The position numbers and the translations under genes were made by a program. DNA of 64,000 nucleotides from Coprobacillus sp. (lineage in GTDB: Bacteria; Bacillota_I; Bacilli_A; RFN20; CAG-826): assembly GCA_021203905.1 (NCBI GenBank), contig JAJQAG010000001.1:1-64000 (forward strand), given 5' to 3'. The notes beneath the pieces were generated by a model. It worked only from the letters and a program-made list of their open reading frames with translations, did not search any database and was not told where the DNA came from. This document shows positions 9,791-62,917 of the stretch, one piece after another (position 1 is the first letter of the stretch; each line of letters begins with the position of its first letter).

Positions 9791-9975
9791 AAAATCGTTA
9801 AAAATTGTCAGTTTTTGTCCAAAAATAAGGAAAAGACTGATTTTTTTATTTTCAAAATTCATCTTTTTCTTTAATTTTTCATAAAAAGTAGGGTTTTTGC
9901 TCTTATTTTTCAAAAAATCCTTTTAATTATGCGCGTGTTATGTGTATAGTATTGTTTGTAAGGAGATTACATAGT

Positions 9976-11748
9976 ATGGAAGATCAAATTCAAACTCTCC
10001 CAGAAGAATCTGGGAAAAACGTGAAATGCGTTAACAAGTTCCACACTGCTCTTTTAACTGTTGGTATTCTCGCTCTTATCTTTGTCGTGATTTGGGCGGC
10101 CGGATATTTCTTACAATATCTTGCTACTGATGTGGGCTTTGTGGATCAACTTAGTGCGCAATTCGACGTTGTAAAAGACTATTTAAACTGGGATGCTATT
10201 AAGACATTCTTCACAGATTGGAATAGTGCAGCCTGGATTGATATTGGTATTTACAACTGCGTTATTGCGTTAATTATCTGCCTCATTCTTGCTATTATTT
10301 TTGCAAGTGTGAAGAAGAGACCAATGGTATTTGTAAGCTACATTTGCCTTATTGTTCTTGTTTATGGTGTCTTTGAAATGGCTTATTATTGCGAAGCCAC
10401 AATTGACATTATTAATGATGTTTCTAGTGATTGGGCAAGCATCTATAATGTTGCTTATTTAGGTGCATGGTTAGTTGCTTGTGCTCTATCTGTTTGTTTC
10501 TGGGTCATCGAATGCTGCTCCGCATTCTCACCATGTGTCGAAAAGACCTGCAAGTGTGTTTGTGAAGAAGAGGGTGAAGAGGAAACATTTGTTAGCACCG
10601 AGGGCGTTGTCTTCACTGCTGAAGATGTTGAGCCTGAACCAGTTCCTATGTTCTTAGCGGAGCCTGAACCAGAAGTTGAGTCCGTTGAGGAACCTGTTGA
10701 GGAACCTGTTGAGAAACCAGTTGAGGAAGCTCCAGTCGAGGAGACTCCTGCACCAGAGCCAACACCTGTCCCTGCTGCTGGACCTACTCCAATTGTAGTG
10801 ACTGCTCCAGCATCACCTGCTCCAACGGTGATTGTTACCCCTGTTCCTACACCTACTCCAGCTCCTGCTACTGATTCTAGCAGTGTTGGAAATCTCTCTA
10901 GAGATGAATTAGTCTCTCTCCTTAGAGAAATCGTGAGAGAAACTGTGAGAGACGAAGTTGCTCGTTCTAACGAGAATGAAGAAGAAGTTACTGCTGGTAG
11001 CGTTAGTGATAGCAGCACACAGAGTCATTCTCTTACCGGTGCATCTTTTGGTGGACCATTAGTGGTTCAATATTTCAATGGACCAGTTCCTGGACCTCAT
11101 CCATGTCCAGATGAATGCCACGAGGAGCCTTGCGAAGAAGGTACTGAAGACCCTTTTGCAAGTGACGCACCTGCCCCAACTCCCGTGGTGGTAAATGTCT
11201 ATAATACAGGTGCGCCCGTTGCACAAGATGCTGTGGTCAAACAAGTAGTGGCCCCAACACCTGCGCCAAAACCACAGCCCAAACCTACTCCTGTGGTGGC
11301 CCCTGTTGTTGCTCCATCTGAGGACACCAACAAGATTGTGCGTATTCCATTTACAGATCGTATCCTTGTCGCTGACGAGGAAACGAAATCTAACTACAAT
11401 GTTCTTAAGAACACCCTTCTCTCCTATGGATTGAAGTCTAGAATCTCTAATAGTGGTGATACTTTCCGTCTCCATAGAAAAACCTATGTGAAGATTACTG
11501 TTGCGGGTAAGAGCTTAAAACTCTACTTCGCTCTTAATCCTGAGGATTATCGTGAGAGCACCATCCCTGTGCAAGATGCAGGCGCCAAGGGTGTGTATGA
11601 GGATATTCCCCTAGTGTTCAAAGTCAAATCTTCTCTCTCTTTAAGAAGAGCCATTCAACTCATTGCTGATTGTGTGGAGAAAGACGACTTAGAACAAGGC
11701 GAAGTTGGTGAAGTTGACTGGGTTCACGAAATCAAAGTCAGCCAATAA
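9976..11748 (+). CDS. Membrane protein with Pro/Glu/Val-rich low-complexity linker and conserved C-terminal domain of unknown function
   Basis: Strong SD (aaggagat) before ATG 9976; ~4 TM segments; EEPVEEPVEKPVEE and TPAPEPTPVP repeats; C-terminal RIPFTDRILVADEETKSNYNVLKNTLLSYGLKSRISN... Confidence 0.8.
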   Translation: MEDQIQTLPEESGKNVKCVNKFHTALLTVGILALIFVVIWAAGYFLQYLATDVGFVDQLSAQFDVVKDYLNWDAIKTFFTDWNSAAWIDIGIYNCVIALIICLILAIIFASVKKRPMVFVSYICLIVLVYGVFEMAYYCEATIDIINDVSSDWASIYNVAYLGAWLVACALSVCFWVIECCSAFSPCVEKTCKCVCEEEGEEETFVSTEGVVFTAEDVEPEPVPMFLAEPEPEVESVEEPVEEPVEKPVEEAPVEETPAPEPTPVPAAGPTPIVVTAPASPAPTVIVTPVPTPTPAPATDSSSVGNLSRDELVSLLREIVRETVRDEVARSNENEEEVTAGSVSDSSTQSHSLTGASFGGPLVVQYFNGPVPGPHPCPDECHEEPCEEGTEDPFASDAPAPTPVVVNVYNTGAPVAQDAVVKQVVAPTPAPKPQPKPTPVVAPVVAPSEDTNKIVRIPFTDRILVADEETKSNYNVLKNTLLSYGLKSRISNSGDTFRLHRKTYVKITVAGKSLKLYFALNPEDYRESTIPVQDAGAKGVYEDIPLVFKVKSSLSLRRAIQLIADCVEKDDLEQGEVGEVDWVHEIKVSQ

Positions 11749-13876: not shown

Positions 13877-14203
13877 GTGGTTTTAGAAAATTATTACGAA
13901 TTAATGCAAAACGTAAAAGAAATTGCCGCAAGGTATTTCTTATACCAACAAAAGCTCAGAAAGAGCGACGATGACTTAGTCGCGGAAGATGTCTCTAACT
14001 ATGAGAAATTTATCAACCGCACCAACGAATCATTTAACAATCTCGACGAGATTGATAAGGAGATTATCAATAATGAATTCTTCTATCAAGAGCATCCCAA
14101 TTGGTGGAAGAAGTATTACAGCAAAGGAGACTTTGAAAAGAGAAAGAAAGTCGCGATGAAGCAATTCGTCCTCAACTTTGTGGAGGCGGGAAAAGATGAC
14201 TAA
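13877..14203 (+). CDS. Small helical protein resembling Mollicutes MG284/MPN403-family proteins, possibly sigma-region-4-like HTH
   Basis: LDEIDKEIINNEFFYQEHPNWWKKYYSKGDFEKRKKVAMKQFVLNF; stop overlaps start of next CDS. Confidence 0.5.
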   Translation: MVLENYYELMQNVKEIAARYFLYQQKLRKSDDDLVAEDVSNYEKFINRTNESFNNLDEIDKEIINNEFFYQEHPNWWKKYYSKGDFEKRKKVAMKQFVLNFVEAGKDD

Positions 14204-15215
14204 TCAAATAATCTTAGGCCTTGCCTGCACCCTCTCTCTTATTGCTCCTTTAGCAGTAGTGGGTCCTAGTGAAGATCTCGTCATTGAACTTGAGCCCATT
14301 GATCATGTCACCACTAACAGTGGGAGTCAATCTCTCTCTATCAATGTTAAAACGACAAACGGGACACAGAGCCTTCGTATCTATGCTCGCCCAACGTCTG
14401 AAAAGAACAACGGGAACAAATTAAGCAATATTGATAATGCGGACTTTGGAACTTATGAGTTCACAACCACCACAAGATATCTTGATAGTAATAAGGTTGA
14501 TCTTGGAGCGATGTGTGCACAAAGCAGCACCGCCTATTTCCAGTTCTATTCGGAGGAGGCAAAAGTAACTAACCCCACCTCAGAAGCGCTCTTTCAGACC
14601 CTACCCTTTGGTGGCACCGCTCAATACGACACCTACACGGTCACTGAACCAGAAGAAGTCAAAGTCAGTGGTCATAGCATCGCTACCGACTATGAATACT
14701 ATGACTTTACTAATTCCAAGTTTTTTGTCACTGAAGATGGGGGTTATATGGACACGAACTTCACCTTCTCTTATAAGACTTGGTATAGTGAGGGATTTAG
14801 TAAAAACACCCATGTGTGGATGGAAATAAAGGATCCCTATGATGCCTTTAGTCAGATTACTAGTAAAGATAGTGATGGAGTTTTTACCATTCCTTGTCAG
14901 GTCTCAAGTAGTTTTAATTCCTCTAGCGGTAGGGGAAGTGTTTCAATTATTCCTGTTTTAGATGGCTTCTATGTCAATCCCTATACCCTAGAGATGTCTG
15001 ATAAACAGATGATTAACTATATCAGTGCGGATCGTTTCTACTTCGCAAATAAATCTAATGATCTCTTCTCTGAGTGTGAGTACACGATTTACATGGAAGA
15101 TTGTATGGGTAATGGAGCGGCCTTTGCCATCTCTTTAGAGTACACCTCCACTCTTTCATACTTTGGCCGTTGTAACTCTAGTTCCTACTGTATCATTGGG
15201 GGAAGATATGCTTAA
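14196..15215 (+). CDS. Exported protein, first gene of Tad-like locus
   Basis: Signal-like MTNQIILGLACTLSLIAPLAVVG; overlaps neighbours on both sides. Confidence 0.65.
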   Translation: MTNQIILGLACTLSLIAPLAVVGPSEDLVIELEPIDHVTTNSGSQSLSINVKTTNGTQSLRIYARPTSEKNNGNKLSNIDNADFGTYEFTTTTRYLDSNKVDLGAMCAQSSTAYFQFYSEEAKVTNPTSEALFQTLPFGGTAQYDTYTVTEPEEVKVSGHSIATDYEYYDFTNSKFFVTEDGGYMDTNFTFSYKTWYSEGFSKNTHVWMEIKDPYDAFSQITSKDSDGVFTIPCQVSSSFNSSSGRGSVSIIPVLDGFYVNPYTLEMSDKQMINYISADRFYFANKSNDLFSECEYTIYMEDCMGNGAAFAISLEYTSTLSYFGRCNSSSYCIIGGRYA

Positions 15216-15621
15216 TCTCCTCATCGCTATCTTATTTGCAGGCATGATGGGAGAGTACTGTCTCATCTCTGTCAAAGTGGAGAACTATAACTATGTCATT
15301 GAGAATATTCCCCTCGCTCTGGTCCAGCAATCAGTCTATCTCGTTAACGACCCCCCATTCTTTAATTTTGAGAAACTAGAAGACAGTCTTAATGATTATT
15401 TTAAAAACTCCCTCACCAATAACGGAAATCAAGATTATGAGGTCTCTTATTACTACTATGACAAAGATAGTGGAGACCAAGTCTACCCTTATGATGTTGG
15501 AGGAGATGATGTTTACCCCACTAAAGTTGTGGTGACACTAGACGCTGACATCTCCGTCCTTTACACCTATTTCAAAAGCATGTATTACCAAATCGAAGGA
15601 GGGAGTGTCACCCATGAATGA
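15208..15621 (+). CDS. Pilin-like/TadE-like small exported protein
   Basis: Hydrophobic N-terminus MLNLLIAILFAGMMGEYCLISVKVENYNYVIEN; position in locus. Confidence 0.5.
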   Translation: MLNLLIAILFAGMMGEYCLISVKVENYNYVIENIPLALVQQSVYLVNDPPFFNFEKLEDSLNDYFKNSLTNNGNQDYEVSYYYYDKDSGDQVYPYDVGGDDVYPTKVVVTLDADISVLYTYFKSMYYQIEGGSVTHE

Positions 15622-16675
15622 TAAAGCTATTGAGTATCTTGAGAATTCCTTTCTCTCTCCTCTCATCTCTGTTTCTTCCATTACGGATATTACCTATAAC
15701 GGGAAAGCAATTTACTACCTTGATAATAACCGGGGGAGAGTCCGCTCCGATATTGAAGTTACCCATGAAGCAGTGAGTAACTTCATTCGTCAAATTGCTA
15801 ATCTCACCCAAAGTGTCTTCTCCTTTAATGACCCAGTTCTTGATATTTCCATCGGTGTGTATCGACTCAGTGCGGTCCATCATAGCATCGCTCGTTATGG
15901 AGGAGAAGAGGTTATTACCTTCTCTATTAGAATTGCAAGGGATCATCTTCTCATCACGGATGATTGTGATTTCTTCTCACCAGAGGTGAGAGATCTCTTA
16001 CTTCTCGCTCTTAAACACCACATCCCCCTCGTTATTGGAGGAGAGACCTCCAGTGGGAAGACAGAGCTACAAAAGTATCTCATCTCCAAGATACCCGCTA
16101 ACGAGAGAGCAATTATTATCGACCAAGTCAGTGAACTCGATTGCTGTCAAAGCTTCTCTAGTTGTGATGTCACGATCTGGAATACTGATGCTAAAAAGCC
16201 AAAGTGTGATATCTCTTATCTTCTTCAAGTGGCTTTAAGGAATAATCCTGACTGGATTATTGTCGCGGAGACAAGAGGAGAAGAGATGGTCAATGTCCTC
16301 AACTCCACGATGACAGGTCACCCCATTATTACCACTCTCCACTCCCCAGATGCTTATTCCATCCCGGAGAAGATGGTGATGATGATCATGATGAATGACA
16401 AGAAGTTTGATTATGAAAGTGTCCTTTGTGATGTTTACTATCACTTCCCTCTCTACATCGAAGTGGAGAGAGTTCAGAAAGGTGAGAAAGTGATTAGACA
16501 TCTCACCTCAGTCGTCGAGGTCAATAAACAAGGGGCCAAGAACATCTTATACGAGAGAAGGAGTCACAAACATGTCTATGGACAGTTAAGAAGTGATAGT
16601 GTCCTACTCCCCCTTATCACTGATAAGCAAAGCAATCTTTATAAAACTTTTATAGGAGGTATCGATGAAAACTAA
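15614..16675 (+). CDS. TadA/VirB11-type secretion ATPase
   Basis: VIGGETSSGKTELQKYL Walker A, IIIDQVSELD, ALRNNPDWIIVAETRGEEMVNVLNSTMTGHPIITTLHSP. Confidence 0.92.
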   Translation: MNDKAIEYLENSFLSPLISVSSITDITYNGKAIYYLDNNRGRVRSDIEVTHEAVSNFIRQIANLTQSVFSFNDPVLDISIGVYRLSAVHHSIARYGGEEVITFSIRIARDHLLITDDCDFFSPEVRDLLLLALKHHIPLVIGGETSSGKTELQKYLISKIPANERAIIIDQVSELDCCQSFSSCDVTIWNTDAKKPKCDISYLLQVALRNNPDWIIVAETRGEEMVNVLNSTMTGHPIITTLHSPDAYSIPEKMVMMIMMNDKKFDYESVLCDVYYHFPLYIEVERVQKGEKVIRHLTSVVEVNKQGAKNILYERRSHKHVYGQLRSDSVLLPLITDKQSNLYKTFIGGIDEN

Positions 16676-17387
16676 AAAGAAATCTAAGTACACAAACTAT
16701 CTTTACTATTTGCTCATCTCTCTCTTACTCGCTTTATGCGCGTACCTATCTTGTAATAATCTCATTGTCTTAATTGGGGTCTTTGTCGTCTTTCTCTTCT
16801 ATTTCTTACTCCGCACACAAAAGAGTTATACCAACATTACAAAGCGCTATCAAAAGATCCACTTCGTCTATAACTTTGTTAACAATGTGGTCACCTCTAT
16901 CAGTGTCTATAAGAATGTCGATGTCAGTGTCGATAAAACCTTAGAGAACATCGACCTTACTCCTTATAGGGAGATTGGAGATATGTCCTCTATGAGTGGG
17001 AGCGATAAACTCCGTTATTTAACTAGTTATTTTTCTCTCCCCATCTATGACACCTTTATGAACATCATTGATCTCTATATAGAGAATGGTGGAGATATCT
17101 TAGAGATGACAGAGCATTTGCTCGCTCAACTAAAAGATATTGAAGGAGAAAGTATCTCCGTTAAGACCTTTGACCGCTCCAAGAGCATCTCTATCGGAAT
17201 CCTTTGGATTGTTGCCCTTGTTATCCCTGTCTTTATTCGCTTTGCGCTTTCTGATTTCTTTGCTTCTTTATGTAGTAGCGCTATCTATGTCGTTGGCATT
17301 GCGGTCATCTATCTCTTCCTCTTACTCACCATCGAGATGATAACCTCTCGTATTTCGCATCAAAGAATTAAAGGAGTGGACTTATGA
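16665..17387 (+). CDS. TadB-like inner membrane platform protein
   Basis: TM architecture with GxF-like cytosolic domain; immediately downstream of ATPase. Confidence 0.7.
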   Translation: MKTKKKSKYTNYLYYLLISLLLALCAYLSCNNLIVLIGVFVVFLFYFLLRTQKSYTNITKRYQKIHFVYNFVNNVVTSISVYKNVDVSVDKTLENIDLTPYREIGDMSSMSGSDKLRYLTSYFSLPIYDTFMNIIDLYIENGGDILEMTEHLLAQLKDIEGESISVKTFDRSKSISIGILWIVALVIPVFIRFALSDFFASLCSSAIYVVGIAVIYLFLLLTIEMITSRISHQRIKGVDL

Positions 17388-18046
17388 GTAGTAATGAAAA
17401 TACAACAACTCCAAAGAAGAAAAGTTCCCCGCTTTTCACCGCGGTAGTTCTTAATATCCTTCTTCTTGTCTTAGCGGCGATTATTCTTATCTATGCTTTC
17501 TCTTGGGCCATGTTAGTAGTGGTTCTCGTCGTTATCGCTCTTATTGATTATTATCTTTACTCTAACAACCGCGCGAAGAAGAGACTAGAAGTCACTAGGC
17601 ACGATGATGAATTTGTCTCTCTTATCTCTTATTTACAGATCTATATCTCTAATGGAGTGAATGTCTATCAAGCCTTTAAGATGACCGAACCCTATCTCTC
17701 AGAGTGGATGAAAGATAAAGTGGACACTCTTCTTAATGACATTGATCAAGATAAGACCGTGCAACCCTTTATTAACTTTGCCACCAACTTCACTCTTCAT
17801 CACTACGAAGATATCTTAATTGTCATTTATCAAATGGTGGATCAGGGTAACAACAATGAATTCGCTCAAAAATTTATGTACATGTTTGAAAAAATCAATG
17901 AGGAGAATACCAGAGCCACTCTTGAAAGTAATAGAAACAGTCTTGATATGATGGGTTCTCTTCCATTAATTGGAGCCGCCGTCTATACAGTGTGTCTCAC
18001 CTTTGGCATTATCTCCATGTTAGGAGGTGTCATCAGTGTCCTCTAA
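17384..18046 (+). CDS. TadC-like inner membrane platform protein
   Basis: Similar TM architecture; overlaps the previous gene by 4 nt. Confidence 0.7.
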   Translation: MSSNENTTTPKKKSSPLFTAVVLNILLLVLAAIILIYAFSWAMLVVVLVVIALIDYYLYSNNRAKKRLEVTRHDDEFVSLISYLQIYISNGVNVYQAFKMTEPYLSEWMKDKVDTLLNDIDQDKTVQPFINFATNFTLHHYEDILIVIYQMVDQGNNNEFAQKFMYMFEKINEENTRATLESNRNSLDMMGSLPLIGAAVYTVCLTFGIISMLGGVISVL

Positions 18047-18377
18047 CCTTGGTCTTGTCTTATCAATGTTCTTTGTCGCTCTCACATTTCTTTTTGGAGC
18101 GGACCTTATCGTTATTCAGTCAGCCTATACCGCTTTACAAAACGATGCTAATGATGTGGCCTACTTCATCATGAAGAATGGTTATAACCCCGATGATGTC
18201 TTAACTTATGTGGAGACATATTGTCCATCGGATACCTATCAAGCCACTGATACGGAAGGTATCGCTGATGGTGATACGGTGTGGTTCTCCATGACGAGAG
18301 ACTTATCACTCTTTCTCTTCCCATCTTCGTTTTCTGTGACTGTCACCCGCGGAGCAGTCATTGGATATTATGACTAA
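18027..18377 (+). CDS. TadE/pseudopilin-like protein
   Basis: LGLVLSMFFVALTFLFGADLIVIQSAYTALQNDANDVAYF, pilin-like N-terminal helix. Confidence 0.55.
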   Translation: MSSVSSNLGLVLSMFFVALTFLFGADLIVIQSAYTALQNDANDVAYFIMKNGYNPDDVLTYVETYCPSDTYQATDTEGIADGDTVWFSMTRDLSLFLFPSSFSVTVTRGAVIGYYD

Positions 18378-18402
18378 CAACACTAAAAGAAAGGAGGTAT
18401 AT

Positions 18403-18621
18403 ATGGGAGAACTTAATGGTCAAATACTAGGCATGGTCATTGTGATTGCCATCTTTGCCGCGATAACCCCGCTTCTCATTAGCATGTTTAATGATCTTAC
18501 CGAGGACATCTCTACTAGCATCACAGAAGTTGAAACTAGCATCGGTGATCTCAACGACTACACCAATAATGCAATCAAGATTGGCAATCAAGAGTTTACA
18601 CTCTTGTCCTATGCCGACTAA
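18403..18621 (+). CDS. Flp-like major pilin candidate
   Basis: Strong SD (aaaggaggtatat); MGELNGQILGMVIVIAIFAAITPLLISMFNDLTEDISTSI. Confidence 0.6.
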   Translation: MGELNGQILGMVIVIAIFAAITPLLISMFNDLTEDISTSITEVETSIGDLNDYTNNAIKIGNQEFTLLSYAD

Positions 18622-18642: not shown

Positions 18643-18676
18643 AACGCGAGAGGATTTCCCTCTTGCGTTTTCTTTT
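18643..18676 (+). terminator. Rho-independent terminator of Tad-like operon
   Basis: AACGCGAGAGG-ATTTC-CCTCTTGCGTTTTCTTTT. Confidence 0.85.
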
Positions 18677-18737: not shown

Positions 18738-18965
18738 ATGGATGTGGAAAAAGTTTTAACTGACATTCTCGCAAAGAGAGTGGACACTACTGGAGTGACC
18801 GATGATAGTGTTTTAACTGACTTAGGGCTCGACTCTCTTGATCTTGTTGAAATCGTCCTTGAGATTGAAGAGGCTTTAGGAGTGGAATTTGAAAATGATG
18901 AAATTCTCTCTGTGAGGACAGTGGGGGATGTTGAAGCTCTCGCTACTAAGAAAGTTTCTAAATAG
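18738..18965 (+). CDS. acpP: Acyl carrier protein
   Basis: LTDLGLDSLDLVEIVLEIEEALGVEF phosphopantetheine site. Confidence 0.95.
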   Translation: MDVEKVLTDILAKRVDTTGVTDDSVLTDLGLDSLDLVEIVLEIEEALGVEFENDEILSVRTVGDVEALATKKVSK

Positions 18966-48696: not shown

Positions 48697-49512
48697 ATGG
48701 CAAAAATAAAAGATCCTGCTAAAAGTGCACAAAAAAAGAAAACCCGTCGTCCAGGAATAACCCTCTTTGAGATTACTTGGTACACCATTTGTGGTGTCGT
48801 TATGGCGTGGGGTCTTACCTATATGGTCCTTGGTCTCATCGCAGATTACACTGATATCTCTGGTTTAATCCGCTTCTCTGACACTATTAAGAGATGCTTT
48901 GGGATGAGCGCTCTCTATTGGGGAATTCTCATTCTCGCTATTGGAGCCATTGCTATTGCTATTGCTCTCTTATGTGTCGCGAGAGTGGTGGATAGAGAAG
49001 TAGAGAAGAAGTCTCGTCGTGAAGCAAGACTTGCTCACCTTAAAGAGCTTGAAGAAGAAGATCGTCTTGCTAGTGAAGCTCCTATTGTGGACGCAGAAAT
49101 TGAACCTGTTAGTGAAGAGGTTCCAGTAGAGGAGACAATTCCTGAACCAGTAGTTGAGGAAGCTCCTGTAGAGGAGGTTCCAACTGAAGAACCGGTTGTG
49201 GAAGAGACTTCAACTGTAGAAGCCCCGGTAGAGGAACCAGTTGTGGAGGAAGCTCCAGCGGAAGAGCCAGTTGTGGATGCTATAGTGGAGGAACCTACAG
49301 AAGAAGCCCCAGTAGAGGAGACAACTCCTGAACCAGAAGCTGAACCCGCCGTAGAGGAAACTCCAGTGGAAGAGCCGGTTGTGGAGATCCCAGTAGAAGA
49401 ACCAGTAGTGGAAGAGACTCCAGTTGTGGAAACCCCTGTGGAGGAGCCCACACCAGAAGTGAGTGAAGAAGCTCCCACTGAACAAGAGGTTACTAGCGAA
49501 GAGGAGAAGTAA
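48697..49512 (+). CDS. Two-TM membrane protein with long Glu/Pro/Val repeat tail
   Basis: Two TM segments then ~130 aa of PVEEPVVEE-type repeats. Confidence 0.75.
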   Translation: MAKIKDPAKSAQKKKTRRPGITLFEITWYTICGVVMAWGLTYMVLGLIADYTDISGLIRFSDTIKRCFGMSALYWGILILAIGAIAIAIALLCVARVVDREVEKKSRREARLAHLKELEEEDRLASEAPIVDAEIEPVSEEVPVEETIPEPVVEEAPVEEVPTEEPVVEETSTVEAPVEEPVVEEAPAEEPVVDAIVEEPTEEAPVEETTPEPEAEPAVEETPVEEPVVEIPVEEPVVEETPVVETPVEEPTPEVSEEAPTEQEVTSEEEK

Positions 49513-49833: not shown

Positions 49834-51579
49834 TTATGGATTCTCGCCTCCACCCTCCCCGCTTCCGGAGCCGCTACCGCCTAAGAGTCCTGATATAAAC
49901 GAGATGAATGCTTGGGCGTCAAAAGTGGACCAATCGTAATCTTCAGGGAAGTATTGACCATAGTTGGAACTAGTAATCAAATCTTCCCAATCGACGTAGG
50001 CGTAGGCATAAAGATAGGTCGAGTCGAGTTGAAGGACCACATCGACATTGATGTCGTCCACTCCAAGAAGATCCATATAATCTCCTAAGATAGAGCTGAA
50101 ATCGAGATTAAGGTCAATGATGAAGGTATCCCCTTCAATAGAGAAGTAGCGGGAGCCTGAGAAGGCATCTGAGAGTTGGTCGATATAATCAGTGACGATT
50201 TGATCACTAAGAGAGTAGCCACCCACTCCATTACCGCTATACTTAAAGGTCATCACCCCTTCGGAGGATTCAACTTCAAAGGAGATAGTAATGGAAATAA
50301 TTTCTCCATCGATGCTTAAGTCAATGGCAAAGACGAATTCTCTATTTCTTGTATTATATTCCGCGGCAATATTAGAAATACCGATATACTTAAGTTCATT
50401 ATCTCTCTGTAAGAAATAGACCGCACCATTGATATCAAGACTTCCGAAATATCTTGAGATATCAGAGATGGGGAGTTTAAAGACTAGGCCATCTGAACTA
50501 AAGATGCCATTAGGATCAAAGTTATTAGTGATTAAGGGAGTGAAGTCATCAATGTAAAGATCTTCCTTTACCCCGCCATAGGTTTCTTTATCATTGTTAC
50601 TAATTCCAATATAGGTGAGATTAAGACGACGGATGATAGTTTGCTGACTATCAGTGAGCTTGCTATAACCCGAACAAAGATAAGCATAAAGTGCATCTCT
50701 CTCTTCTTCTGTGGTAATAACTCCTAAGTCGAGAAGATATTCGACATCTGCTACGACATCATCAATTGGCATCTCATACTCGTTGAATGGACCGGTGATG
50801 AATCCTCCAACATTTGCAGCAAAGTATAAGGAGTTACCATAATCTGTACCTGCGAATAAGAGGTTATTAGTGACCAAGATATCAAGGAAGGATTCAACAT
50901 ATAAAGAGGCATCTCCTTCTCCTAAGAGCCTCGTGATATCATTTGTAAACCCGTCGATAGGATAGACAAAACGAGTATTCTCACTATCGTACTCTAGGGA
51001 GAAGCCCATATCTTGAATGGACTTCATTAGTTCATTCATATCAAGGAGAGAATCAAGTAGAGAGAGCAGTAAGTTCTTCAGTCCAAGATCTCCAATCTTA
51101 ATTGCGAGGATGGTAAAGTAAATCGCAGAGTTATGATAATCGTTGTAATCGATATAAGTTTCAAGGGAAGTTTCAATGATAAGTCTCGTCTTAAAGAAAG
51201 AGATAGAGACCTCGAGGTAGATATTTAATTGTCCATTTTCAATCTCGACATAGTAGTTATCGACATAATCATCAAGTCCGAGTTCAGCGAGATAACCCCC
51301 AAGAAGAGAATGAAGGAGTGAGGAAATATCATAATCTGTGAGTTGATAGAAGAAGTATTTATCGTTGTTTCTGTTATTAGCGTCAAGTAAGGTGATGGAA
51401 TCGTATAGCTCTCCCATAAAGACATCTTCGAGAGTGAGAGAGGTGTCATAGGTGTTATCTGTTCTCTCATCATCGTAGATTGTCGTATAAATAAAAGTGA
51501 TTGGCACCACTAAGATAAAAACAATCGCTAAAATGACAATGATGAGAACGTTATGAGTTTTACGAGTTTTATATGCCAT
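49834..51579 (-). CDS. Membrane-anchored exported protein with Gly/Ser-rich C-terminus, unknown
   Basis: Single N-terminal TM; 581 aa; C-terminal GGSGSGSGEGGGENP. Confidence 0.65.
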   Translation of the reverse strand: MAYKTRKTHNVLIIVILAIVFILVVPITFIYTTIYDDERTDNTYDTSLTLEDVFMGELYDSITLLDANNRNNDKYFFYQLTDYDISSLLHSLLGGYLAELGLDDYVDNYYVEIENGQLNIYLEVSISFFKTRLIIETSLETYIDYNDYHNSAIYFTILAIKIGDLGLKNLLLSLLDSLLDMNELMKSIQDMGFSLEYDSENTRFVYPIDGFTNDITRLLGEGDASLYVESFLDILVTNNLLFAGTDYGNSLYFAANVGGFITGPFNEYEMPIDDVVADVEYLLDLGVITTEEERDALYAYLCSGYSKLTDSQQTIIRRLNLTYIGISNNDKETYGGVKEDLYIDDFTPLITNNFDPNGIFSSDGLVFKLPISDISRYFGSLDINGAVYFLQRDNELKYIGISNIAAEYNTRNREFVFAIDLSIDGEIISITISFEVESSEGVMTFKYSGNGVGGYSLSDQIVTDYIDQLSDAFSGSRYFSIEGDTFIIDLNLDFSSILGDYMDLLGVDDINVDVVLQLDSTYLYAYAYVDWEDLITSSNYGQYFPEDYDWSTFDAQAFISFISGLLGGSGSGSGEGGGENP

Positions 51580-60694: not shown

Positions 60695-61147
60695 ATGAAA
60701 ACATTAATGGTGGTCTTTTCCCCAAGAGGGAAGACCTATCGTAAAGCTAGAGAAATAAAAAACATCGTCGACTCTGATCTATATGAGATCTATCCCGATA
60801 AGTCCTATGGTGGTTTCTTTCATAACATCAAGGTGGCGAGTCAAGAATATCAAAGTAGTGAACTTATCCCCATTAAGAAAGAGATTGAGTATGATATCCT
60901 CTCCTATGATCGTGTCTTAGTGGGCTATCCTGTTTGGTGCGCGAGAACCCCGCAAGTAGTGGTCTCTTTCCTTAAGACTCATGAGTTTGCAAATACGAAG
61001 ATCTATCCCTTTATTACCAGTGCGTGGACCAAGCCCGATAAGGTTGTCACCAAACTAAAAGAAGAACTCCCCAACCTTAATATCCATGGTGGTTATAAGG
61101 CTAACCATGTAAAAGGGAAGAGAGTCATTGCGTGGTTATATCACTAA
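60695..61147 (+). CDS. Flavodoxin-like protein (paralogue 1)
   Basis: MKTLMVVFSPRGKTYRKAREI...DRVLVGYPVWCARTPQVVVSFLKTH. Confidence 0.8.
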   Translation: MKTLMVVFSPRGKTYRKAREIKNIVDSDLYEIYPDKSYGGFFHNIKVASQEYQSSELIPIKKEIEYDILSYDRVLVGYPVWCARTPQVVVSFLKTHEFANTKIYPFITSAWTKPDKVVTKLKEELPNLNIHGGYKANHVKGKRVIAWLYH

Positions 61148-61285: not shown

Positions 61286-61975
61286 ATGCCATCGAGTTTA
61301 AGTGAAGAAGAAATCTCAGAAGCGTATAAAAAGATCTACGCTTTATATTCTTTATATGGTTGTAATGGCATCTCGATGGATAAAGTAAGTCAAGAGACAG
61401 GGATCTCTAAGGCCACTCTCTATTCATACTTTGATAGTAAAGAGAGCATTGTCACCAATATGGTCTCTTATCTCATCTCTTGTCTTGATTCCGTGGAGTT
61501 AGAGAGGGTTAATTCTATCGATGAGGTTATCTCTTGTATCGAAGACTTCTACACGAAAAGCGTGATGATCGCTGCGCTCTCAAGAGGGAACTTCTTGCAC
61601 GATGTCAAAGAGAAATTCCCCGAGGCCTATGAGAGCGCCATCTCGGCGATGAAAGACTTAGAGAAGCGCTTTGAGTCTTTCTATAATCTCGCCTCCTCTC
61701 GTGGTTATGTAAAGAAGTTATATCTTCCCTTAGTGACGAGTCAGTTCCGCTCCTCTCTTCCTCTAACAGTCGACGTTGAGTTTCAAAAGGCACATCATCT
61801 CACGCTTACGAGTGCGCTTAAGGAATACTACATTATCTTTCTCTCTGAGATTATTGATACTCCTTATATTCATATCTTAGAGAAGAGTAGCATTTATGAC
61901 TTTATCCCTCATCTTAAAGAGGTCTTAATTAATGACTTCTATATCACCACAGTGAGAAGAAGTGGAGGTCAATAA
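61286..61975 (+). CDS. TetR-family transcriptional regulator
   Basis: N-terminal HTH ALYSLYGCNGISMDKVSQETGISKATLYSYFDSKESIVTNMV. Confidence 0.9.
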   Translation: MPSSLSEEEISEAYKKIYALYSLYGCNGISMDKVSQETGISKATLYSYFDSKESIVTNMVSYLISCLDSVELERVNSIDEVISCIEDFYTKSVMIAALSRGNFLHDVKEKFPEAYESAISAMKDLEKRFESFYNLASSRGYVKKLYLPLVTSQFRSSLPLTVDVEFQKAHHLTLTSALKEYYIIFLSEIIDTPYIHILEKSSIYDFIPHLKEVLINDFYITTVRRSGGQ

Positions 61976-61976
61976 T

Positions 61977-62426
61977 ATGAAAACCTTAGTCATCTATTAT
62001 TCCTTAAGTGGCACCACAGAGATTGTCGCTCAAAGAATCCAAACCCAACTTGACGCGGATCTCTTCCAGATCGTCCCTAAGAAAGACTATGGAGATTACC
62101 ACCACGCGATTGATCTTGCGGGTAGAGAATATGAGAATAATGAACTCCCTGAATATATTGGGGACGTTAAAGATTTTGATAGTTATGAGAGAATCATTAT
62201 TGGTTACCCCTTGTGGTACTATAAAGCCCCACAAGTGGTCCTCTCTTTCCTTCTCTCTCATAACCTTGAAGGAAAGGAGATCTATCCTTTCTGCACTAGT
62301 GGAAGTCAGGATGCTGATAACTCTGTAGAAGTTCTAAGGAGTCAACTACCCACTGCTAGTATCCACGAGGGTATTAGAGTGACTTCCTATAATAGTAGTC
62401 AAATAGAGGAGTGGTTATCTCATTAA
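61977..62426 (+). CDS. Flavodoxin-like protein (paralogue 2)
   Basis: MKTLVIYYSLSGTTEIVAQRI; IIIGYPLWYYKAPQVVLSFL. Confidence 0.9.
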   Translation: MKTLVIYYSLSGTTEIVAQRIQTQLDADLFQIVPKKDYGDYHHAIDLAGREYENNELPEYIGDVKDFDSYERIIIGYPLWYYKAPQVVLSFLLSHNLEGKEIYPFCTSGSQDADNSVEVLRSQLPTASIHEGIRVTSYNSSQIEEWLSH

Positions 62427-62467: not shown

Positions 62468-62917
62468 ATGAAAACACTAGTTGTTTGTTTCTCAAGAGGG
62501 GGCCGCACTCTCAAAGTGGCCAAAGCCATTGAAACTCTTACTGAAGGAGATCTCTTTGAAGTCAAGACTGACAAGAAGTATGGTGGATACTTCAAAGCCC
62601 TTGGTGTGGCTAACAAAGAGTACAAGAGTGGAGAGTTACCCACAGTGATTGGGGATGTCAAAGACTGGGAGAGTTATGACCGTGTTTTTGTGGGCTTTCC
62701 TATTTGGTATGGGAAGTGCCCAATGGTGATGCAATCTTTCCTTAAGAGTCATGATTGGACAGGAAAGGAAGTTCATCCCTTCGCTACCTCAGGTATGAGT
62801 GGAATTGAAGGCGCCGTCCCTCAAGTCACAGAGTGTTGTGTGGGCGCTAACATCCATGAAGGACTCAGAACAGGTAAACCTAAAGAAGCGGAACTTAAAG
62901 CTTGGATTGAGAAGTAA
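62468..62917 (+). CDS. Flavodoxin-like protein (paralogue 3)
   Basis: Strong SD; MKTLVVCFSRGGRTLKVAKAI; VFVGFPIWYGKCPMVMQSFL. Confidence 0.9.
   Translation: MKTLVVCFSRGGRTLKVAKAIETLTEGDLFEVKTDKKYGGYFKALGVANKEYKSGELPTVIGDVKDWESYDRVFVGFPIWYGKCPMVMQSFLKSHDWTGKEVHPFATSGMSGIEGAVPQVTECCVGANIHEGLRTGKPKEAELKAWIEK

Follow-up and report, generated by a model that had tools for sequence, protein, structure and literature searches.

Cleavage of a leader peptide by a prepilin peptidase has been described as a required step in the assembly of type IV filaments, and the peptidase is part of the smallest known Tad machinery as listed by Pelicic (2019, PMC6916266). Can such a filament be built when both the leader and the peptidase are missing? 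This question is raised by a plus-strand operon of Coprobacillus sp. (GCA_021203905.1), located at 13877-18621 of a 64,000-nucleotide stretch (contig JAJQAG010000001.1, positions 1 to 64,000), which is here called the window. The operon consists of eight tightly overlapping genes followed by a strong terminator. Its products resemble the motor, the platform and the small pilins of the Tad/Flp pilus. The analysis points to a minimal Tad-like type IV filament machine working without prepilin processing, a reading to which we give a probability of about 0.6.

The last gene of the operon (18403-18621, +) starts with ATG and encodes a leaderless, single-pass candidate major pilin of 72 amino acids (aa), the Flp-like protein, beginning MGELNGQILGMVIVIAIFA.... 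Its start is fixed by the Shine-Dalgarno sequence AAGGAGGT (18391-18398, +), which ends four bases before the start codon. The start codon is ATG in 80 of the 82 distinct homologues and GTG in the other two; a Shine-Dalgarno sequence of at least 5 bases stands at the correct distance in 81, and 65 are devoid of any in-frame upstream start. All of them begin [MV][SGT]E. The second residue is thus S, G or T in 82/82. The third is E in 82/82; it belonged to the search motif, a motif that no homologue failed. Residue 7 is Q in 74/82. The hydrophobic helix starts at about residue 8. The canonical G|xxxxE motif, scanned as G/A-x4-E, was found in 0/82 of these proteins. Size, place and topology are right for a Flp/Fap major pilin, and we infer that the protein is the filament subunit.

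A similar start was observed for the TadE-like gene (18036-18377, +), which has a GTG start and encodes a leaderless single-transmembrane protein of 113 aa (VSSNLGLVLSM...). Its 82 distinct relatives begin [MVL][SGA] directly ahead of the transmembrane segment, with S, G or A as residue 2 in every one and no upstream start in 71. AlphaFold2 modelled the protein with high confidence (predicted local distance difference test, pLDDT, 91) as two helices, the first of 47 residues, followed by a sheet of three strands, and this predicted fold is the general shape of a pilin. As a control, the prepilins of canonical Tad loci in the same class were inspected. All ten showed G|QxxxE with leaders of 5-15 residues, and those sampled matched PF04964 (Flp_Fap) and PF07811 (TadE). 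The small proteins of the operon gave no significant match in Pfam and NCBIfam. Their proposed homology to Flp and TadE is based on position, size and topology, and not on significant profile scores. An earlier note on this DNA had already remarked that the pilin-like N-termini lack the G|xxxxE motif; this absence holds clade-wide and is the key point of this work.

The same note had listed no prepilin peptidase in the window, and the search of the whole source genome was equally empty. Even with the threshold relaxed to E ≤ 10, no A24 peptidase (PF01478) was detected, and no small polytopic GxGD protein turned up when every open reading frame (ORF) of the reassembled genome was scanned. A divergent peptidase was considered and rejected, as the GxGD scan returned only larger proteins, one of them ComEC-like. 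The search itself works: of the 395 genomes sampled in the class, 160 gave an A24 match with the same profile. Within the order, the 58 genomes bearing the ATPase were obtained by joining separate surveys of ATPase and A24 by hand, and A24 was not found in 57 of them. Family f1 gave two matches: one (G289) is part of a type IVa pilus locus distinct from the operon, whose prepilins carry FTLVE/FTLIE, and the other (G357) runs antisense to a prs-like gene and was not counted as real. A candidate methionine aminopeptidase (MetAP) is present in the source genome. Given its known specificity, this enzyme would act on M-S and M-G starts. Since residue 2 is always small and translation starts where a processed pilin would, MetAP alone could give the final N-terminus. 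Signal peptidase I was considered as an alternative processor; its profile (PF10502) was positive in 30/39 relatives and negative in the source genome. Signal anchors may be retained on the exported proteins of this genome, or it may have a divergent signal peptidase.

The motor gene (15614-16675, +) encodes a TadA/CpaF-type hexameric ATPase of 353 aa. It matched PF00437 (E 5e-18), TIGR03819 (E 5e-27) and the CpaF structures of the PDB (E 6.5e-30). The Walker A motif GGETSSGKTE is intact and, like the EtRG glutamate and TTxHS motifs, conserved; the N-terminal extension of canonical TadA is missing. The TadB-like (16665-17387, +; 240 aa, four predicted transmembrane segments) and TadC-like (17384-18046, +; 220 aa, multiple transmembrane segments) platform proteins are paralogues (hhalign 96%). 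The TadC-like protein was matched to TadC of the f17 systems (97%) and to canonical TadC (91%), and the TadB-like protein to canonical TadB at only 76%. In the platform loci of relatives, PF00482 was over the cut-off in G028 and reached E 1.6e-4 in another; a PDB sequence search with the TadC-like protein gave no match. In a maximum-likelihood tree, the ATPases of the order formed one clade with those of families f17 and f25/f20 (support 96/92), separate from the clade of canonical Tad ATPases of the same class (support 99/97). The motor and the two platform proteins, which the earlier note had called VirB11/TadA, TadB-like and TadC-like, descend from the TadA/TadB/TadC lineage.

Two further components of Tad systems are to be considered. 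The operon contains no TadZ or TadG gene, in agreement with the earlier reading of the window as free of TadZ, and a genome-wide motif scan saw no TadZ, the only ParA/MinD-type ORF being a distant one on another contig (C3:2927-3757). The secretin is a Tad component of diderms only, and its absence is expected in a monoderm.

The operon is well conserved. Of 39 near relatives, 25 have the ATPase; a tally of 26 includes the ComGA of G030. In a sample spanning the class, the ATPase is also present in 42/44 members of the window's family. When named genomes were scanned, 198 encoded relatives were revealed, of which the best 80 belong to metagenome-assembled genomes of uncultured gut and rumen Bacilli; among those 80, the closest ATPase is 55% identical. 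The labels of the relatives are mostly Erysipelotrichaceae, Bacillales or Bacilli, with two Mollicutes. The description of the genome as Mollicutes-like was thus only loosely right; it has the standard code, FtsZ and a MetAP.

The operon begins with a gene for a cytoplasmic protein of the MG284/MPN403 family (13877-14203, +; 108 aa; NCBIfam NF045770, E 2.6e-17). It is followed by exp1 (14196-15215, +; 339 aa), an exported protein, and exp2 (15208-15621, +; 137 aa), a small exported single-transmembrane protein and, by its TadF-like position, a candidate second minor pilin. Per-gene profiles revealed that the order MG284-exp1-exp2-ATPase-TadB-TadC-TadE-Flp is kept across families in essentially all of 106 loci, which include some genomes twice and correspond to about 80 distinct loci. 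The synteny to be expected from the earlier note was therefore found. The MG284-family gene leads the operon in 90/106 loci, and several of the others are cut by contig ends. Between near relatives, the ratio of nonsynonymous to synonymous substitution rates (dN/dS) was approximately 0.02-0.16 for nearly all operon genes, lowest for the ATPase and the platform and highest for exp1. For exp2, the pair L119/L126 gave a value of 3.5, an apparent local frameshift artefact that was not used. Because gene order is conserved across families and dN/dS is low, the operon is not a chance arrangement. In G028, a tandem pair of Flp-like genes was observed (locus L060, 4641-5036).

Outside the order, the nearest ATPases are encoded in loci L229-L238, from families f17, f25 and f20 of the same class. 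Their Flp-like and TadE-like proteins are also leaderless, starting MKEATGELNMTV..., MKDFLGEYGLVVV... and MKEAIGGSWL..., and the TadE-like protein of the operon was matched to that of f25 (hhalign 75%). Aligned by eye, profile scores being weak for proteins this short, these first residues run gap-free with MSEIKGQLLG, so that the canonical E5 would fall on residue 7, which is E in the three families and Q in f1. A further difference is that the f17, f25 and f20 genomes encode A24 peptidases, in most cases together with a canonical Tad or Com system; f17 and f25 genomes also carry canonical Tad loci with leaders. Unlike f1, the f17, f25 and f20 loci retain an RcpC/CpaB-like protein, and those of f17 also carry DUF5411. 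The latter (PF17424, E 2.9e-56) is a leaderless protein, the first small membrane protein of f17 Tad-like operons (L230, L231 and others), which suggests a role in the Tad-like operon for this family of unknown function.

When compared with the Tad/Flp (type IVc) pilus, as represented by Caulobacter Cpa, Bifidobacterium breve and Bulleidia extructa (PMC12786226), the operon shares the TadA/CpaF ATPase, the paralogous TadB/TadC pair, a tiny all-helical candidate pilin, a TadE-like minor protein and the compact layout. It differs in having no TadV/A24 peptidase, no class III leader, no visible TadZ, no CpaB/RcpC gene and no long N-terminal domain on the ATPase, and in its additional MG284-family and Ig-like (immunoglobulin-like) exported proteins. 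Except for the peptidase, the parts of the operon are those that Pelicic (2019, PMC6916266) gives as the minimal Tad machinery of monoderms, exp1 standing where TadZ/TadG would be. Both leader and peptidase were looked for and neither was found, and for this reason the system should not be classed with the canonical Tad pili. The Com pilus (ComGA-GG) and the type IVa pili of Bacilli share the principle of an ATPase plus a platform, but they need ComC/PilD and carry FTLxE prepilins; such systems are present separately in G030 and G289. The set of a Com pilus was not found in the source genome, which has a single T2SSE ATPase and no A24 match, and in which a motif scan gave no N-methyl-type pilin start. 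No description of leaderless pilins or of a peptidase-free Tad system in Bacilli was found in the open-access literature, and an earlier description elsewhere is possible.

Some loci have lost their motor. The ATPase and Flp genes are both missing from the operon in G011 (f1) and G038 (f5) as well as in the four genomes inspected from f3, namely G024, G031, G036 and G188. The absence of the ATPase is genome-wide, while that of Flp refers to the operon. These loci keep MG284, exp1, exp2, TadB, TadC and the TadE-like gene at the expected places, TadB and TadC being fused in f3. The f3 genes were identified by profile comparison (exp1 93%, exp2 78%, TadB 92%, TadE 94%); in G038, MG284, TadB and TadC were confirmed by profile and the remaining genes were assigned by position. 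In the f3 pair G024/G036, dN/dS was 0.12-0.24, and the remaining motorless genes are under purifying selection where tested.

Such selected motorless loci favor the strongest of the rival explanations, namely that there is no pilus and that the operon encodes a complex of the envelope or for secretion, in which a platform, static or of the pseudopilus type, serves to export or display exp1 and exp2. The fast evolution of exp1 is also what would be expected of a surface or cargo protein. However, the great majority of loci retain the full motor and a strongly conserved Flp-like protein, and the joint loss of both in three lineages is as expected of a motor and its polymer. An envelope or secretion complex is regarded as unlikely.

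It could also be argued that the Tad pilus is an ordinary one and that its prepilin peptidase is shared with another system, divergent, or encoded in the missing 3% of the source assembly, which is 97% complete. Indeed, one such peptidase, encoded away from the pilus genes, often serves more than one system (Denise 2019, PMC6668835; for the KilA/PilD case, PMC12075869). Even so, there is no leader present to cut, and the near absence of A24 across the ATPase-bearing genomes of the order was obtained with the very profile that detects it elsewhere in the class. This explanation appears improbable.

A DNA-uptake (competence) pilus, one of the two functions suggested in the earlier note, fares slightly worse. 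The source genome encodes DprA and RecA candidates and a divergent ComEC-like protein (L096:16842-18881; DUF4131 plus metallo-beta-lactamase) and has no ComG-type locus, and Tad pili are reported to serve DNA uptake in Liberibacter (PMC8513845). Nevertheless, ComEC accompanies the operon in 17 of 25 genomes and is found in 9 of 14 genomes without it, showing no association, and the suggestion is left unsupported. The weakest alternative, a VirB11-type ATPase of a type IV secretion system (T4SS) or conjugation system, is very improbable: the VirB11 profile does give the highest bit score (TIGR02788, E 3.5e-30), but its alignment is limited to the ATPase core, whereas the TadA-type and CpaF profiles span nearly the whole length, no other T4SS gene (VirB4, VirD4 or VirB6) was found in a search that covered the conserved neighbourhood and not the whole genome, T4SS have none of the platform proteins of which two paralogues are encoded here, and the ATPase sits in the Tad lineage, as opposed to the unrelated VirB11 family considered in the earlier note, the T4SS-type ATPase of one relative being placed elsewhere in the tree.

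Several observations weigh against a processing-free filament machine. The filament itself is putative. The Flp-like and TadE-like proteins reached hhalign values of just 14% and 6% with canonical Flp and TadE, with no significant profile match, and when the TadE-like model was compared with PDB folds, neither a pilin nor any other solved structure matched. In family f9, nested beside f1 in the ATPase tree, a TadV-like gene adjoins the ATPase, which means that more than one change lies behind the loss of the peptidase. The source genome may encode a highly divergent, non-A24 peptidase. Finally, the three lineages that lack ATPase and Flp keep the rest, and part of the operon thus acts without a filament.

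In the proposed minimal filament machine, translation would start at the position of a processed pilin and MetAP would make the final N-terminus. The Flp-like subunit would enter the membrane as a bitopic protein. The ATPase would then turn the TadB/TadC platform, and the subunits would be pulled into a short filament or pseudopilus, which the TadE-like protein and exp2 may start or cap. The filament would carry or push the Ig-like exp1. As to its use, a short attachment filament is considered most likely, followed by a secretion or static envelope complex and then by DNA uptake; attachment to surfaces in the gut is our guess.

As to the accessory proteins, AlphaFold2 predicted tandem beta-sandwich domains for exp1 (pLDDT 75), and the best PDB matches were immunoglobulin folds with low TM-scores, so that "Ig-like" is a statement of predicted class only. 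A C-terminal CxxSxYCxxG is conserved in the alignment of most relatives and is possibly a disulfide or an attachment signal. For exp2, no significant match to any known family was found with Pfam, NCBIfam and hhalign. In TGA-reading mycoplasma-like genomes (L281, L282, L284, L285), the gene next to MG284 encodes a protein of about 375 aa, and after it there is in most cases one for a small single-transmembrane protein. This MG284 family, known mainly under its mycoplasma names, is homologous to the first gene of the operon (hhalign 98%), and the arrangement recalls the MG284-MG285-MG286 gene order of mycoplasmas. MG285 and MG286 were rejected as remnants of exp1 and exp2: layout and sizes are alike, but hhalign gave less than 1%. 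Unlike the operon, the mycoplasma-type loci have no ATPase or platform genes.

Regarding the boundaries of the operon, the seven overlapping same-strand genes listed in the earlier note (14196-18621, +) were borne out, with overlaps of 4-11 nucleotides and, as sole exception, a 25-nucleotide gap before the last gene. The MG284-family gene, which overlaps exp1 by 8 nucleotides, had been missed. The intrinsic terminator reported there was confirmed at 18643-18669 (+), with an 11-bp stem followed by a T-rich tail (-17.3 kcal/mol, z -4.7). A promoter scan at the operon scored no better than shuffled sequence, and none is claimed. Outside the machine, an acyl carrier protein gene (18738-18965, +) is the same downstream neighbour in many relatives; upstream, a guanylate-kinase-like gene, reading away, also recurs in many of them. 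Elsewhere in the window there are three clustered genes, named flavodoxin-like from reading their sequences (60695-61147, 61962-62426 and 62468-62917), with an apparent TetR-type regulator, named likewise, between the first two. Two membrane proteins (48697-49512 and 9940-11748) have long low-complexity E/P/V-rich runs (VEEPVEE), and two large proteins with no assigned function have N-termini that look exported (203-2737 and 49834-51579).

A wider evolutionary course can be proposed tentatively, at somewhat less than even odds: the whole filament lineage would have swapped processing for mature-length pilins plus MetAP, and sublineages would then have lost motor and pilin jointly, leaving a selected motor-free complex of platform, minor pilins and Ig-like protein with a function of its own. 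A clade with neither peptidase nor leaders makes it testable which parts of the leader, or of its removal, are needed, be it for insertion, for holding subunits back or for freeing the N-terminus. The motorless versions may show what the platform and the minor pilins do alone, and the operon is perhaps the smallest gene set for rebuilding a type IV filament.

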